Of a stretch of 63,161 nucleotides of DNA, positions 19,896 through 23,611 are shown piece after piece. Position 1 is the stretch's first letter. Each line of letters begins with the position of its first letter. The notes beneath the pieces are model-generated. The model searched no databases. It saw only the letters and a program-made list of their open reading frames with translations, and was not told the origin of the DNA. Source of the stretch: Archaeoglobi archaeon (GTDB lineage Archaea > Halobacteriota > Archaeoglobi > Archaeoglobales > Archaeoglobaceae); contig JAPDIW010000001.1 in the NCBI GenBank assembly GCA_029259415.1, forward strand, positions 1 to 63,161, read 5' to 3'. The position numbers and the translations under genes were made by a program.

Positions 19896-21140
19896 CTATT
19901 CGTAAACTTTCTCCCACTCCTTGTACCAGTCCATTGCGTCCTTCTCCACATCTCTATCTTTTGATGGTAGCCCCATCATCTTGTAGGTCTCGTGCTGGAT
20001 GAGCAACTTCATGATTTCGTTGCTTCCCGTCCATATCGGTGATAGCCTCATGTCTCTGAGCATCCTCTCAACCGGATAAACTTGCGTGTAGCCTATACCG
20101 CCAAGAATCTGCATTGCCTTGTTGACAACATCCCATCCAACGTCCGTTGCGAAGTACTTAGCCTCGCTCACCAGCCTTCTCGGATCTGGGCCTTTTCCGG
20201 CGTCGTATAAGTCCACAGCTCTTGCAGCATTGTAGGTTAAAGCTCTTGCCGCATCGAGCTTCGTTATCGCCTCAGCCACCATGAAGTTAACTCCCTGAAA
20301 CTCCCTAATTTTTCTGCCGAAAGCTTTTCTCTTGTTGGAATACTTTACGGCAACTTCCAGAGCCGCTCTTGCCGTTCCGAGTGCTCCGGCAGCGGAAGTT
20401 AGCCTTTCCGGGATCATCATCCTGTTGAAAATTTCTCTTGCCCCATTAACCTCACCAACTCTGTACTCATCCGGCACCTCGACGTCCTTGAAGACTATCC
20501 TTGCCGTCCCCATCCCCCTGAACCCAAGCAGGTTGTAGATCTCTTCAATCTCAACACCCATATCCCTCTCAACCAGAAAAGCGGTAAGAGCCTTGTGTCC
20601 GGGAGCATTTGGATCAGTTCTGGCATAAATCAGGTAGAAGTCTGCCACCTTTCCTCCAGCGATAAACCTCTTCGCACCATTCAGCACCCAGACGTTTCCT
20701 TTCTTCTCAGCTCTAGTCGTTGTGCCGAAGAAGTCGCTACCACCTCTCGGCTCAGTCAAACCCTCAGCCGAAACCTTTTTTCCCTTGATTATCGGCTTCA
20801 GAAACTCCTCCTTCTGCCACTCCTGACCAAAGCGGTATATGGCTTCTCCAACAATGCTTACCATCGCGTAACTGCATCCAATTCCGTTCCCCAACACACC
20901 AACTTCTTCAACAGCCACACTCTCAGCAGTCCAGCTCAGCCCTCTCCCGCCGTACTCTTCAGGGAATCTCAATCCAAGCATTTTTCTTTTTGCCGCCTCC
21001 TCCAGAAATTCGAAGGGATAATCAACCTCATCTCTGTCCATTCTCCTCAAAAGTTCGGGATCAATGGCATTAACGAGCTCCTTAGCCTCCTCCCTTATTT
21101 TTATCTCCTCCTCAGTCAGAAGGGCGTTGTTTTCAAGCAT
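19896..21140 (-). CDS. Acyl-CoA dehydrogenase (helix-G glutamate type)
   Basis: FAD-dependent acyl-CoA to enoyl-CoA oxidation. Substrate/FAD motifs AEGLTEPRGGSD and WVLNGAKRFIAGG are present, and the C-terminus has GGIGYTQVYPVERMLRD. At the MCAD catalytic position it reads IWTGSNEIM, without Glu; instead MIPERLTSAAG carries the Glu used by isovaleryl-CoA and long-chain enzymes. GTG 21149 overlaps the acyl-CoA synthetase stop, but GAGGTG six nt before ATG 21140 supports that start. It shares an operon with an AMP-forming acyl-CoA synthetase below a LiuR-like regulator, fitting branched-chain or fatty acid breakdown. Confidence 0.92.
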   Translation of the reverse strand: MLENNALLTEEEIKIREEAKELVNAIDPELLRRMDRDEVDYPFEFLEEAAKRKMLGLRFPEEYGGRGLSWTAESVAVEEVGVLGNGIGCSYAMVSIVGEAIYRFGQEWQKEEFLKPIIKGKKVSAEGLTEPRGGSDFFGTTTRAEKKGNVWVLNGAKRFIAGGKVADFYLIYARTDPNAPGHKALTAFLVERDMGVEIEEIYNLLGFRGMGTARIVFKDVEVPDEYRVGEVNGAREIFNRMMIPERLTSAAGALGTARAALEVAVKYSNKRKAFGRKIREFQGVNFMVAEAITKLDAARALTYNAARAVDLYDAGKGPDPRRLVSEAKYFATDVGWDVVNKAMQILGGIGYTQVYPVERMLRDMRLSPIWTGSNEIMKLLIQHETYKMMGLPSKDRDVEKDAMDWYKEWEKVYE

Positions 21141-21145
21141 TTGCA

Positions 21146-22633
21146 TCACCTCTCCAATAACATATTTCTTAACGAAAGTTTGTTAATTTTTCCCGTGCTT
21201 GTGAGCGGGATTTCATCAACAATCACAAAGTCTTCGGGGATCCACCATTTTGCGATCCTACCTTCTTCAACGGCCTTGAGCAAATGCTGCTTCACATCAT
21301 CAATGTTCGCTTTACTCCTGTCAAGAGGTTTGATTACTGCAAAAGGTCTTTCTCCCCACTTCTCATCCGGTTTCCCCAGAACTGCAACATACTCCACCCA
21401 CTCAATTTCCGAGATCACAGATTCCAGCACGCTGCTTGGGATCCACTCACCACCCGACTTGATGGCATCCTTAACTCTGTCCAGTATCTTTATTCCTCCA
21501 TCAGGCATTTCAACACCGAGGTCTCCAGTTTTGAACCATCCATCTTCGGTGTAAGCTTCTTTTGTTTTCTCCTCGTCCTTGTAGTACTCCATGGGGAGCC
21601 ACGGAGCCCTGAAATATATCTCGCCTGACTCACCGCTCATTCCCTCCTGAGGGACTATTTTGAACTCCGCAAAGGGAACAGGATGCGTCACCTGCCTGAT
21701 GTAATCAATACCCTTCTTCTTCGCTTCCTCTGTCATAATGGAAATCGAGGAAGCGAGCATGTCAGTGCCACCGTATATTGTTGAGAACTTCATTCCCGCT
21801 TTTTCCATTCGCCTTGCCAAGTCAATCGTGATCGTGCTACCCCCAATCAGCACTTTAAGACCGCTCAAATCCTCCTTTGTTTCAAGCAACATGTTGACCA
21901 TGGTTGGAACTGCGTTAATCCAGGTTACACCTTCCTTTTTGATGATTTTCACAGCTTCTGCTGGTTCAAACCTGCCTCCCATTACCAGCTTTAGACCCAT
22001 ATATGGCCCAATGAAAACTGTCCCCCATGCAAGAATGTGGTAAATGGGTATTTGTGGGAAAATCACGTCCTTGTAGGCTAGATTTGCAGGAGTTTCGTGA
22101 TGAGCGAGCTGGTGTGCAATGCTAAGTGCGCCGTGAATCATTTTTTCGTGGCTGTATCTTACGGCTTTGGGCAACCCCGTGGTGCCGCTGGTAAAAAGAA
22201 TGACTGCAACATCGTCGGGCTTTACGTTGATTTCAGCCGCACCAGCATCTGCTTTTTCAACAACCTCTTTGATATGCAAACTCTCGCCGTCGTGAACCTT
22301 AGTTAGGCCAGAAAAGTCGTCGGAATAAATCAAAAGTCCGGATTCGGATTTTCTCAGTGTGTAAGCTATCTGGTCCGGAGGCAGCCGGATGTTCACAGGA
22401 TAAATGATTCCTCCTGCTGCAGTTACTGCATAAATCAATTCGAAAAACTCCGGCGTGTTCCAGTCTGCAACTGCTACCACTTCGTTTTTAATCCCCACGC
22501 TCTTAAAGTACGCTGCTAGTCCTTGGACTCTTTCAAAGATTTCTGAATAATTTCTAGCACCATTTTTGCCTACAACCTCTGTGTTCGAAAACAACTTTGC
22601 CGCCCTTTCCAAAATATACGGAATAGTAAACAC
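21146..22633 (-). CDS. AMP-forming acyl-CoA synthetase
   Basis: Activates a carboxylic acid through acyl-AMP. Adenylate-forming motifs: LFTSGTTGLPKAV (P-loop), STIYGGTDM, DGWFKTGDLG, IKSGGEWIPSS and the C-terminal lysine in STGKINK. About 495 residues, a normal length. A TTG at 22657 is in frame, but the TATA box (22663-22673) would start transcription near 22643, downstream of it; GTG 22633 with GGTGA four nt upstream is the better start. It is followed by the acyl-CoA dehydrogenase gene. Chain length specificity cannot be judged. Confidence 0.92.
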   Translation of the reverse strand: MFTIPYILERAAKLFSNTEVVGKNGARNYSEIFERVQGLAAYFKSVGIKNEVVAVADWNTPEFFELIYAVTAAGGIIYPVNIRLPPDQIAYTLRKSESGLLIYSDDFSGLTKVHDGESLHIKEVVEKADAGAAEINVKPDDVAVILFTSGTTGLPKAVRYSHEKMIHGALSIAHQLAHHETPANLAYKDVIFPQIPIYHILAWGTVFIGPYMGLKLVMGGRFEPAEAVKIIKKEGVTWINAVPTMVNMLLETKEDLSGLKVLIGGSTITIDLARRMEKAGMKFSTIYGGTDMLASSISIMTEEAKKKGIDYIRQVTHPVPFAEFKIVPQEGMSGESGEIYFRAPWLPMEYYKDEEKTKEAYTEDGWFKTGDLGVEMPDGGIKILDRVKDAIKSGGEWIPSSVLESVISEIEWVEYVAVLGKPDEKWGERPFAVIKPLDRSKANIDDVKQHLLKAVEEGRIAKWWIPEDFVIVDEIPLTSTGKINKLSLRNMLLER

Positions 22634-22662: not shown

Positions 22663-22689
22663 AATATTTAAACTTAACGTTTACGTCAA
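22663..22689 (-). promoter_or_regulatory. TATA box plus LiuR-type palindrome of the acyl-CoA operon
   Basis: On the minus strand the palindrome (22674-22689) is followed directly by the TATA element GTTTAAATATT (22673-22663). The palindrome on the plus strand is TTAACGTTTACGTCAA, matching the symmetric form TTnACGTnnACGTnAA. Bacterial LiuR (MerR family) binds an ACGTnnACGT-type palindrome as I recall it. The site overlaps the stop codon of the MerR gene and abuts the TATA box, where a regulator could help or block the basal factors. Confidence 0.65.
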
Positions 22690-23078
22690 CTGCTTCTTTC
22701 TAACTCTTCCAGTCTTTTTAAAAGCATGTCTCGAAGATTTATGATATCCTCTTTAAGAAGTTCGAGTTCCCTTATCTTCTCCTCTATTTCTCTCAGCTTC
22801 TTCTCACCGTATTTCAGGGTGAGCCTTATCTGTTCAGGCTCTCCTGCAACATCATACATTTCAATCATTTCTCTGATCTCTTCAAGGCTGAAACCCAGCC
22901 TTTTCCCTCTCAAAATAAGCTTCAACTTTGCCCTGTCTTTCTTAGAGAAAATTCTTTGATTACCCTTGGTCCTCTCTGGGTTCAACAACCCAATCTCCTC
23001 GTAATAACGAATAGTCCTCGTGCTTATCTCGAACTCCCTAGCAAGTTCCGAGATTGTGTAGTGCTCTTTTTTCTTCAT
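22686..23078 (-). CDS. MerR-family regulator, LiuR-like
   Basis: 130 residues. A winged helix-turn-helix at 8-75 (YTISELAREFEISTRTIRYY, then EEIGLLNPER) is followed by KLKLILRGKRLGFSLEEIREMI and a long coiled-coil helix for dimerisation. The GKRLGFSLEEIREM segment is characteristic of LiuR/PbrR-like regulators of leucine and fatty acid catabolism in proteobacteria. No cysteine metal site is seen. The next genes downstream are an acyl-CoA synthetase and dehydrogenase, and a matching palindrome separates them. MerR proteins are not common in archaea, so transfer from bacteria is likely. Confidence 0.88.
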   Translation of the reverse strand: MKKKEHYTISELAREFEISTRTIRYYEEIGLLNPERTKGNQRIFSKKDRAKLKLILRGKRLGFSLEEIREMIEMYDVAGEPEQIRLTLKYGEKKLREIEEKIRELELLKEDIINLRDMLLKRLEELERSS

Positions 23079-23179
23079 TTGGAGAATGGTAGGTTATAGA
23101 CTTTAAAATATTTCCCTTCTAATGATTTATCTAACAAAATAGCGACTGGATATTAGATAAATACCTAAATGCAAAAAAA

Positions 23180-23188
23180 TTTATATAG
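23180..23188 (+). promoter_or_regulatory. TATA box before the HTH-hydrolase operon
   Basis: TTTATATAG lies about 60 bp before ATG 23243 and predicts a transcript start near 23210, leaving a leader of about 33 nt that carries a full GGAGGTGA ribosome binding site (23230-23237). This contrasts with the leaderless starts of many nearby genes. Confidence 0.6.
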
Positions 23189-23242: not shown

Positions 23243-23611
23243 ATGGTTGAAGAGCTGACTGAAAGGGAAGAAAGAATCGTCCAGTTGCTCTCAGAGACTG
23301 GCCTGAACAGAAATATAGCCAAAGTAGTGGTTTTCCTCGCAAAGGCAGGTGAAGCGGTCTCAAGGGATATAGAGAGAGCAGCAAACCTCAGACAGCCTGA
23401 AGTAAGTCTGGCGATGAAAGATCTCAAAGAGTGGGGCTGGATTAAGGAGAGAGAGATCAAGAAGAAAGGTAAAGGAAGACCGCTTAAATGCTACAAGCTC
23501 ACCAGAGATTTGAAGGAAATAGTTTCGGAACTTGTCCAGAACAAGAAAGAAGAGATAAAGAAGATTGAAAAGGACCTTGAAGAACTGGAGAAGCTCGTTG
23601 GATTGAAGTGA
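23243..23611 (+). CDS. Archaeal winged-helix regulator with coiled-coil tail
   Basis: 122 residues. The helix-turn-helix covers about 20-75 (NIAKVVVFLAKAGEAVSRDI, then RQPEVSLAMKDLKEWGWI), followed by the basic wing KKKGKGRPLKCYKL and a C-terminal coiled coil rich in Lys and Glu. It resembles COG3388-type archaeal predicted regulators. GTG 23234 is in frame but lies inside the ribosome binding site, so ATG 23243 is used. It is coupled (TGATG) to a hydrolase gene. Effector and targets unknown. Confidence 0.75.
   Translation: MVEELTEREERIVQLLSETGLNRNIAKVVVFLAKAGEAVSRDIERAANLRQPEVSLAMKDLKEWGWIKEREIKKKGKGRPLKCYKLTRDLKEIVSELVQNKKEEIKKIEKDLEELEKLVGLK

Follow-up and report, generated by a model that had tools for sequence, protein, structure and literature searches.

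The analysed stretch of DNA, 63,161 nucleotides from an Archaeoglobi archaeon (hereafter the window), carries three minus-strand genes in the order merR, acs and acd. The ORF list, Pfam and a phylogenetic tree identify merR (22686-23078, minus strand) as the gene of a 130-residue, cysteine-free regulator of the LiuR clade within the MerR family. acs (21146-22633, minus strand) encodes an AMP-forming acyl-CoA synthetase and likely starts at a GTG at 22633, in an open frame that extends to 22657. acd (19896-21149, minus strand) encodes an acyl-CoA dehydrogenase whose likely start, judged from its relatives, is an ATG (MLENN...) near 21140. A 16-bp palindrome, TTAACGTTTACGTCAA (of the form TTnACGTnnACGTnAA), overlaps the merR stop codon at 22674-22689 and is a putative operator, identified from the sequence and from 15 genomes. 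The initial annotation had reported both the merR reading frame and this palindrome, and we confirm their positions.

The TATA box of the acs-acd operon (TTTAAATA, 22665-22672, minus strand) lies 1 bp past the palindrome. The BRE consensus is RNWAAW, and a BRE-like hexamer, GTTAAG (22673-22678, minus strand), matches it in five of six positions and has five of its bases within the palindrome. The initial annotation placed the palindrome on the TATA box, which does not hold literally: it stops 1 bp short of TTTAAATA on the upstream side and covers the BRE position. When the same promoter is read in a bacterial frame, one of six bases matches a -35 hexamer and three of six match a -10 hexamer, and a TATA box is present instead. 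An operator within a 19-20-bp -35/-10 spacer, as in the classical MerR arrangement, is accordingly not what we find in the window. In an ungapped comparison of five genomes from the genus of the window, invariant positions number 14 of 16 in the palindrome and 10 of 12 directly after it, versus 4 of 48 farther downstream. The promoter of merR itself lacks the palindrome in this genus. The divergent intergenic region between merR and mreA (23104-23183) contains a different inverted repeat, ATTTATCT...AGATAAAT with a 22-bp gap, within a long block conserved in six genomes of the genus, including those in which merR is lost or broken. This repeat probably serves the adjacent MreA-family regulator (23243-23611) as its operator.

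Two matches to the palindrome with at most one mismatch occur in the window, compared with 0.03 in window shuffles; one is the exact site and the other sits within a histidine-kinase-like gene. Across 36 genomes, exact sites outside the promoters described here number 13, versus 14 for a reversed-pattern control. Off-promoter sites are thus as frequent as the control, which puts the chance of a fortuitous exact site at ∼4e-5 per genome for a given 200-bp promoter. We therefore reject a chance palindrome on the basis of the shuffles, the reversed-pattern control and the recurrence of the site at promoters. A wider regulon in the genus of the window was rejected as well: the other exact sites that we inspected (C1:69299 in G000, plus one to two each in G002, G006 and G007; further exact sites exist in G003, G004 and G005) lie within genes and look like chance occurrences.

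A genome-wide profile search returned the window merR as the sole MerR_1 gene of the genome. Its product matches the Pfam models MerR_1 (E = 4.9e-21, over the cut-off) and MerR-DNA-bind (E = 3.7e-16), has no TetR domain and shows the LiuR domain arrangement of a MerR_1 domain followed by a short C-terminal helix region. To place it, we calculated a tree of 81 proteins and used the merR-ivd-mccB-ech-mccA locus of Marinobacter sp. M3C, defined by its operon context, as the LiuR yardstick. A supported clade (96/87; 43 rows of the tree, with no firm inner order) joins Marinobacter LiuR with proteins from Vibrio, Photobacterium, Rubrobacter, Bacillaceae, Archaeoglobi and an archaeon of another family of the same phylum (G082), and the Archaeoglobi proteins form a single group within it (93/97). 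TTTACGTTTACGTAAA is found directly upstream of Marinobacter merR, and the same palindrome, of the form seen at the archaeal promoters, lies beside the Vibrio, Photobacterium and Rubrobacter genes. The earlier description of the regulator as LiuR-like is borne out by this clade and by the common palindrome; its likeness to Proteobacteria in particular is not, as the highest identity is to Bacillaceae. The liu/ivd genes for isovaleryl-CoA dehydrogenase and methylcrotonyl-CoA carboxylase are not adjacent to the archaeal regulators, whose targets are acs-acd or a thiolase/acd operon; we therefore speak of the LiuR clade rather than of LiuR proper. Delta- and alphaproteobacterial relatives fall outside the clade and have no exact palindrome beside them. 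Seven deltaproteobacterial loci among these (L075, L076, L077, L088, L096, L104 and L116) carry another, related word (TTTACGTAAAGGTCAA or a close variant) upstream of the regulator gene. Psychromonas L074 was discarded as a yardstick, lacking liu context and lying outside the clade.

A merR match is present in 21 of 59 Archaeoglobi genomes. The initial annotation had proposed a search of related genomes for the palindrome beside acyl-CoA genes, and we find the exact site at the core promoter of acs, acd or merR in 15 genomes whose merR is intact, of which 14 are Archaeoglobaceae and the other is G082, in which merR is 57% identical and forms a merR-acd operon. Gene order varies around the site. 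The palindrome lies between merR and acs-acd in the genus of the window, where G007 has lost acs, and in G030; merR and acd diverge from one common palindrome in five genomes (G026, G034, G072, G075 and G077); in merR-acd arrangements it stands between the genes in G076 and ahead of merR in G019 and G082. In G021, merR is unlinked, on another contig and without a site, and the genome has its single exact palindrome at the acd promoter. In G008 and G065, which both retain merR, no target was found, and the thiolase/acd operon is absent. G066 has the palindrome with merR undetected in a fragmented, 9% contaminated assembly. Two palindromes overlap by 10 bp in G019 (L026:6466-6487) and in Rubrobacter (L189:4958-4979), with three ACGT cores 6 bp apart, an arrangement that may accommodate two dimers. 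At L141:5339-5850, close to one end of a 3.2-Mb contig filed under the archaeal phylum (59-68% GC), a proteobacterial-looking LiuR gene accompanies an acyl-CoA dehydrogenase gene and three exact palindromes, and the locus looks like an import or contamination. The G361 locus was set aside as an archaeal LiuR because its DNA, with 59-68% GC surrounding the gene, looks proteobacterial and lies close to where a contig ends.

The palindrome disappears together with the regulator gene. Seven relatives without an intact merR (G002, G003, G010, G016, G017, G060 and G062) retain acd orthologs of 80-99% identity, and none has the palindrome (0/7). G002 has an acd of 99% identity at the same locus and has lost merR, acs and the palindrome. 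G003 keeps an acd ortholog and lacks the palindrome. Its merR is a pseudogene (L031/L183): an in-frame TAG interrupts it around codon 7, and homology extends no further than about residue 67. The promoter element on the mreA side persists in both genomes. The association of palindrome and intact merR gives a Fisher p of 6e-6, which rises to 5e-4 when four Geoglobus-like genomes are scored as misses; the genomes are related, and these values are only indicative.

In the Geoglobus-like genus, merR (61-64% identical) stands in an unrelated neighbourhood (TiaS, Hjc, HisD), and the acs/acd promoters have no palindrome. A one-mismatch scan located a version with an altered outer base, (A)TnACGTTAACGTnAA, ∼35 bp upstream of an operon for two thiolase-like proteins, two OB-fold proteins, an acyl-CoA dehydrogenase and an enoyl-CoA hydratase. 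This version occurs in G020, G029, G063, G064 and G066 (L192:3742, L193:6692, L194:6870, L195:1358 and L196), each time adjoining a TATA-like box, ATTTAAAT; the orthologous thiolase-operon promoters of five genomes from other genera have no palindrome. Judged from these promoter sequences, the palindrome has moved to the thiolase/acyl-CoA dehydrogenase operon in this genus. According to the initial annotation, absence of the palindrome from the promoter in sister genomes that keep the gene would count against its proposal; such an absence is found here at acs/acd, but the site is present at another acyl-CoA operon.

The nearest bacterial relatives are Bacillaceae proteins, whose MerR sequences are 43-65% identical over the aligned part. 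Of the 17 Bacillaceae loci examined, most carry the exact palindrome a short distance ahead of merR; their operons usually run merR-acs-acd, as in the window. In 14 of 16 cases the palindrome fills a 19-bp spacer between -35-like and -10-like hexamers (the next best frame accounts for 5 of 16); a palindrome in a spacer of 19-20 bp is the usual layout for MerR regulators (PMC1526738). The Bacillaceae and archaeal systems thus differ in the position of the operator, upstream of merR within a spacer versus next to a TATA box, and in their enzymes, which belong to distant subfamilies: acs is 25-30% identical (29% for the window) and acd 22-26% (26%). Other acyl-CoA dehydrogenases and ligases of the Bacillaceae genomes are nearer to those of the window (37-39%), still not close. 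We therefore reject the transfer of a whole merR-acs-acd operon from Bacillaceae. Since the enzymes are distant while the regulators are 43-65% identical, regulator and operator are common to both domains and the enzymes are not. The initial annotation had left open whether regulator and site came together with the acyl-CoA operon or were adopted for it; adoption agrees with these data, arrival with the enzymes does not, as the archaeal acs and acd differ from those of the Bacillaceae operon. The regulator is more simply read as bacterial in origin, given that the clade spans Bacillota, Pseudomonadota and Actinomycetota and is found in few archaea.

The position of the palindrome relative to the TATA box bears on its possible function. 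In nine genomes from two genera the TATA box starts 1 bp after the palindrome, which places the outer half-site at the BRE position with five to six of six matches to RNWAAW. In four genomes (G030, G019, G021 and G082) the TATA box ends 0-4 bp before the palindrome, and it also just precedes the palindrome in the Geoglobus-like genus; in both cases the palindrome extends over the DNA on the start-site side. Two of the 15 genomes (G034 and G076) had TATA scores under the threshold applied. Because the palindrome is found on either side of the TATA box, a protein that blocks TBP/TFB or polymerase is the simplest reading.

While clade membership, the site, its association with the gene, the promoter geometry and the co-loss are read from the sequences themselves, we infer binding, repression, the ligand and the direction of transfer as parts of an explanation. 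We consider it probable that the LiuR-clade regulator represses the acyl-CoA operon from its core promoter, is released by acyl-CoA and was acquired without bacterial enzymes. A MerR protein of bacterial descent would bind TTnACGTnnACGTnAA as a dimer at the acs-acd core promoter and would occupy BRE/TATA or the start region, such that TBP/TFB or RNA polymerase could not engage. Repression would be relieved by an acyl-CoA that the enzymes of the operon probably make or consume. Regulator and operator would have been gained without the bacterial enzymes and attached to acyl-CoA genes that were the archaeon's own or separately acquired. In these heat-loving archaea, palindrome and regulator probably block the genes for fatty- or branched-acid breakdown until these are needed. 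Several observations count against this account: merR in G008 and G065 has no recognized target, G066 has the palindrome with merR undetected, the palindrome is missing from the merR promoter in the genus of the window, and two of the 15 TATA scores are low. The suggestion that the mechanism must differ on a TBP promoter holds for the layout (a 19-bp spacer in Bacillaceae, abutment to TATA in archaea); it is less paradoxical than claimed, because LiuR has already been described as a repressor of branched-chain amino acid utilization (PMC3223726).

The main rival to repression is an activator that, directly upstream of the TATA box, would assist TFB/TBP binding to the acs-acd promoter, perhaps only in its acyl-CoA-bound form. 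The exact 1-bp distance to the TATA box in nine genomes, an upstream-adjacent position usable by archaeal activators, and the 19-bp spacer layout of Bacillaceae, which is typical of MerR activators, would fit such a role. We nonetheless regard it as unlikely: in the four genomes and the Geoglobus-like genus with the palindrome downstream of TATA, a bound protein would more likely block the start site, LiuR is described as a repressor (PMC3223726), and genomes that lost merR retain an intact acd.

Two further explanations were weighed. Binding of the MerR protein to the palindrome is putative and an MreA regulator gene adjoins, and thus the palindrome could belong to another regulator or be a chance or inherited word unrelated to MerR. 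This is very improbable, as the palindrome tracks acd when merR is unlinked, vanishes with merR and is common to bacterial LiuR-clade genes, and as the inverted repeat on the mreA side is a different word that persists where merR is lost. It is more doubtful still that an ordinary metal- or redox-sensing MerR stands beside acyl-CoA genes by accident. ZntR, CueR and MerR are the best curated models by score, and metal-type MerR proteins the best PDB matches; their model scores are, however, far below the cut-offs, and the neighbours are acyl-CoA genes in both domains. The cysteine ligands of MerR, CueR, ZntR and SoxR are missing: neither the window protein nor the archaeal orthologs examined contain a cysteine, which makes metal or thiol sensing by the window protein unlikely. 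With metal-responsive MerR, CueR and ZntR the window regulator has the MerR fold in common; it differs from them in lacking cysteine ligands and a -35/-10 promoter and in its acyl-CoA neighbours.

The repressor reading has a precedent in FadR of Sulfolobus acidocaldarius, a bacterial-type repressor of acyl-CoA catabolism from the TetR family that binds semi-palindromic sites and is released by acyl-CoA; from a site downstream of the start it represses after TBP/TFB binding (PMC6449355). Like the window MerR, FadR is a bacterial-type regulator of acyl-CoA catabolism in an archaeon; it differs in its TetR fold, as an unrelated protein with an unrelated operator, and in controlling a 30-kb gene cluster. 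Proteobacterial LiuR, which regulates the utilization of branched-chain amino acids (ILV), belongs to the same clade and has the same palindrome and acyl-CoA catabolic targets, whereas the archaeal regulator lacks a liu operon as target, would act at TATA/TFB promoters and apparently serves one operon per genome. We found no literature on the A. fulgidus ortholog of merR, and a transcriptome paper did not contain the gene names sought. The LiuR-clade kind of regulator and bacterial-type repressors in archaea are already known; as far as the open-licence literature that we searched shows, a LiuR-clade regulator with an unchanged operator on archaeal promoters, rewiring within a family and losses that tie site to gene are new.

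Taken together, we see about an even chance that regulator and operator crossed from Bacteria to Archaea as a portable unit and were re-set from the sigma -35/-10 spacer to TATA/BRE. The outer half-site (GTTAA/GTAAA) would then double as BRE, with repressor and TFB competing for the same bases, and the pair would later have been rewired to a second acyl-CoA operon. In archaea, a core transcription machinery of eukaryotic type works with regulators of bacterial type, and tracing one regulator with an unchanged DNA word across domains is rarely possible. Here, one 16-bp operator occurs on both promoter kinds, with natural losses and natural rewiring. It thereby becomes directly testable whether simple occlusion suffices on a TBP/TFB promoter for a MerR protein with relatives in the promoter-twisting layout, and how a regulon can persist when the transcription machinery changes.
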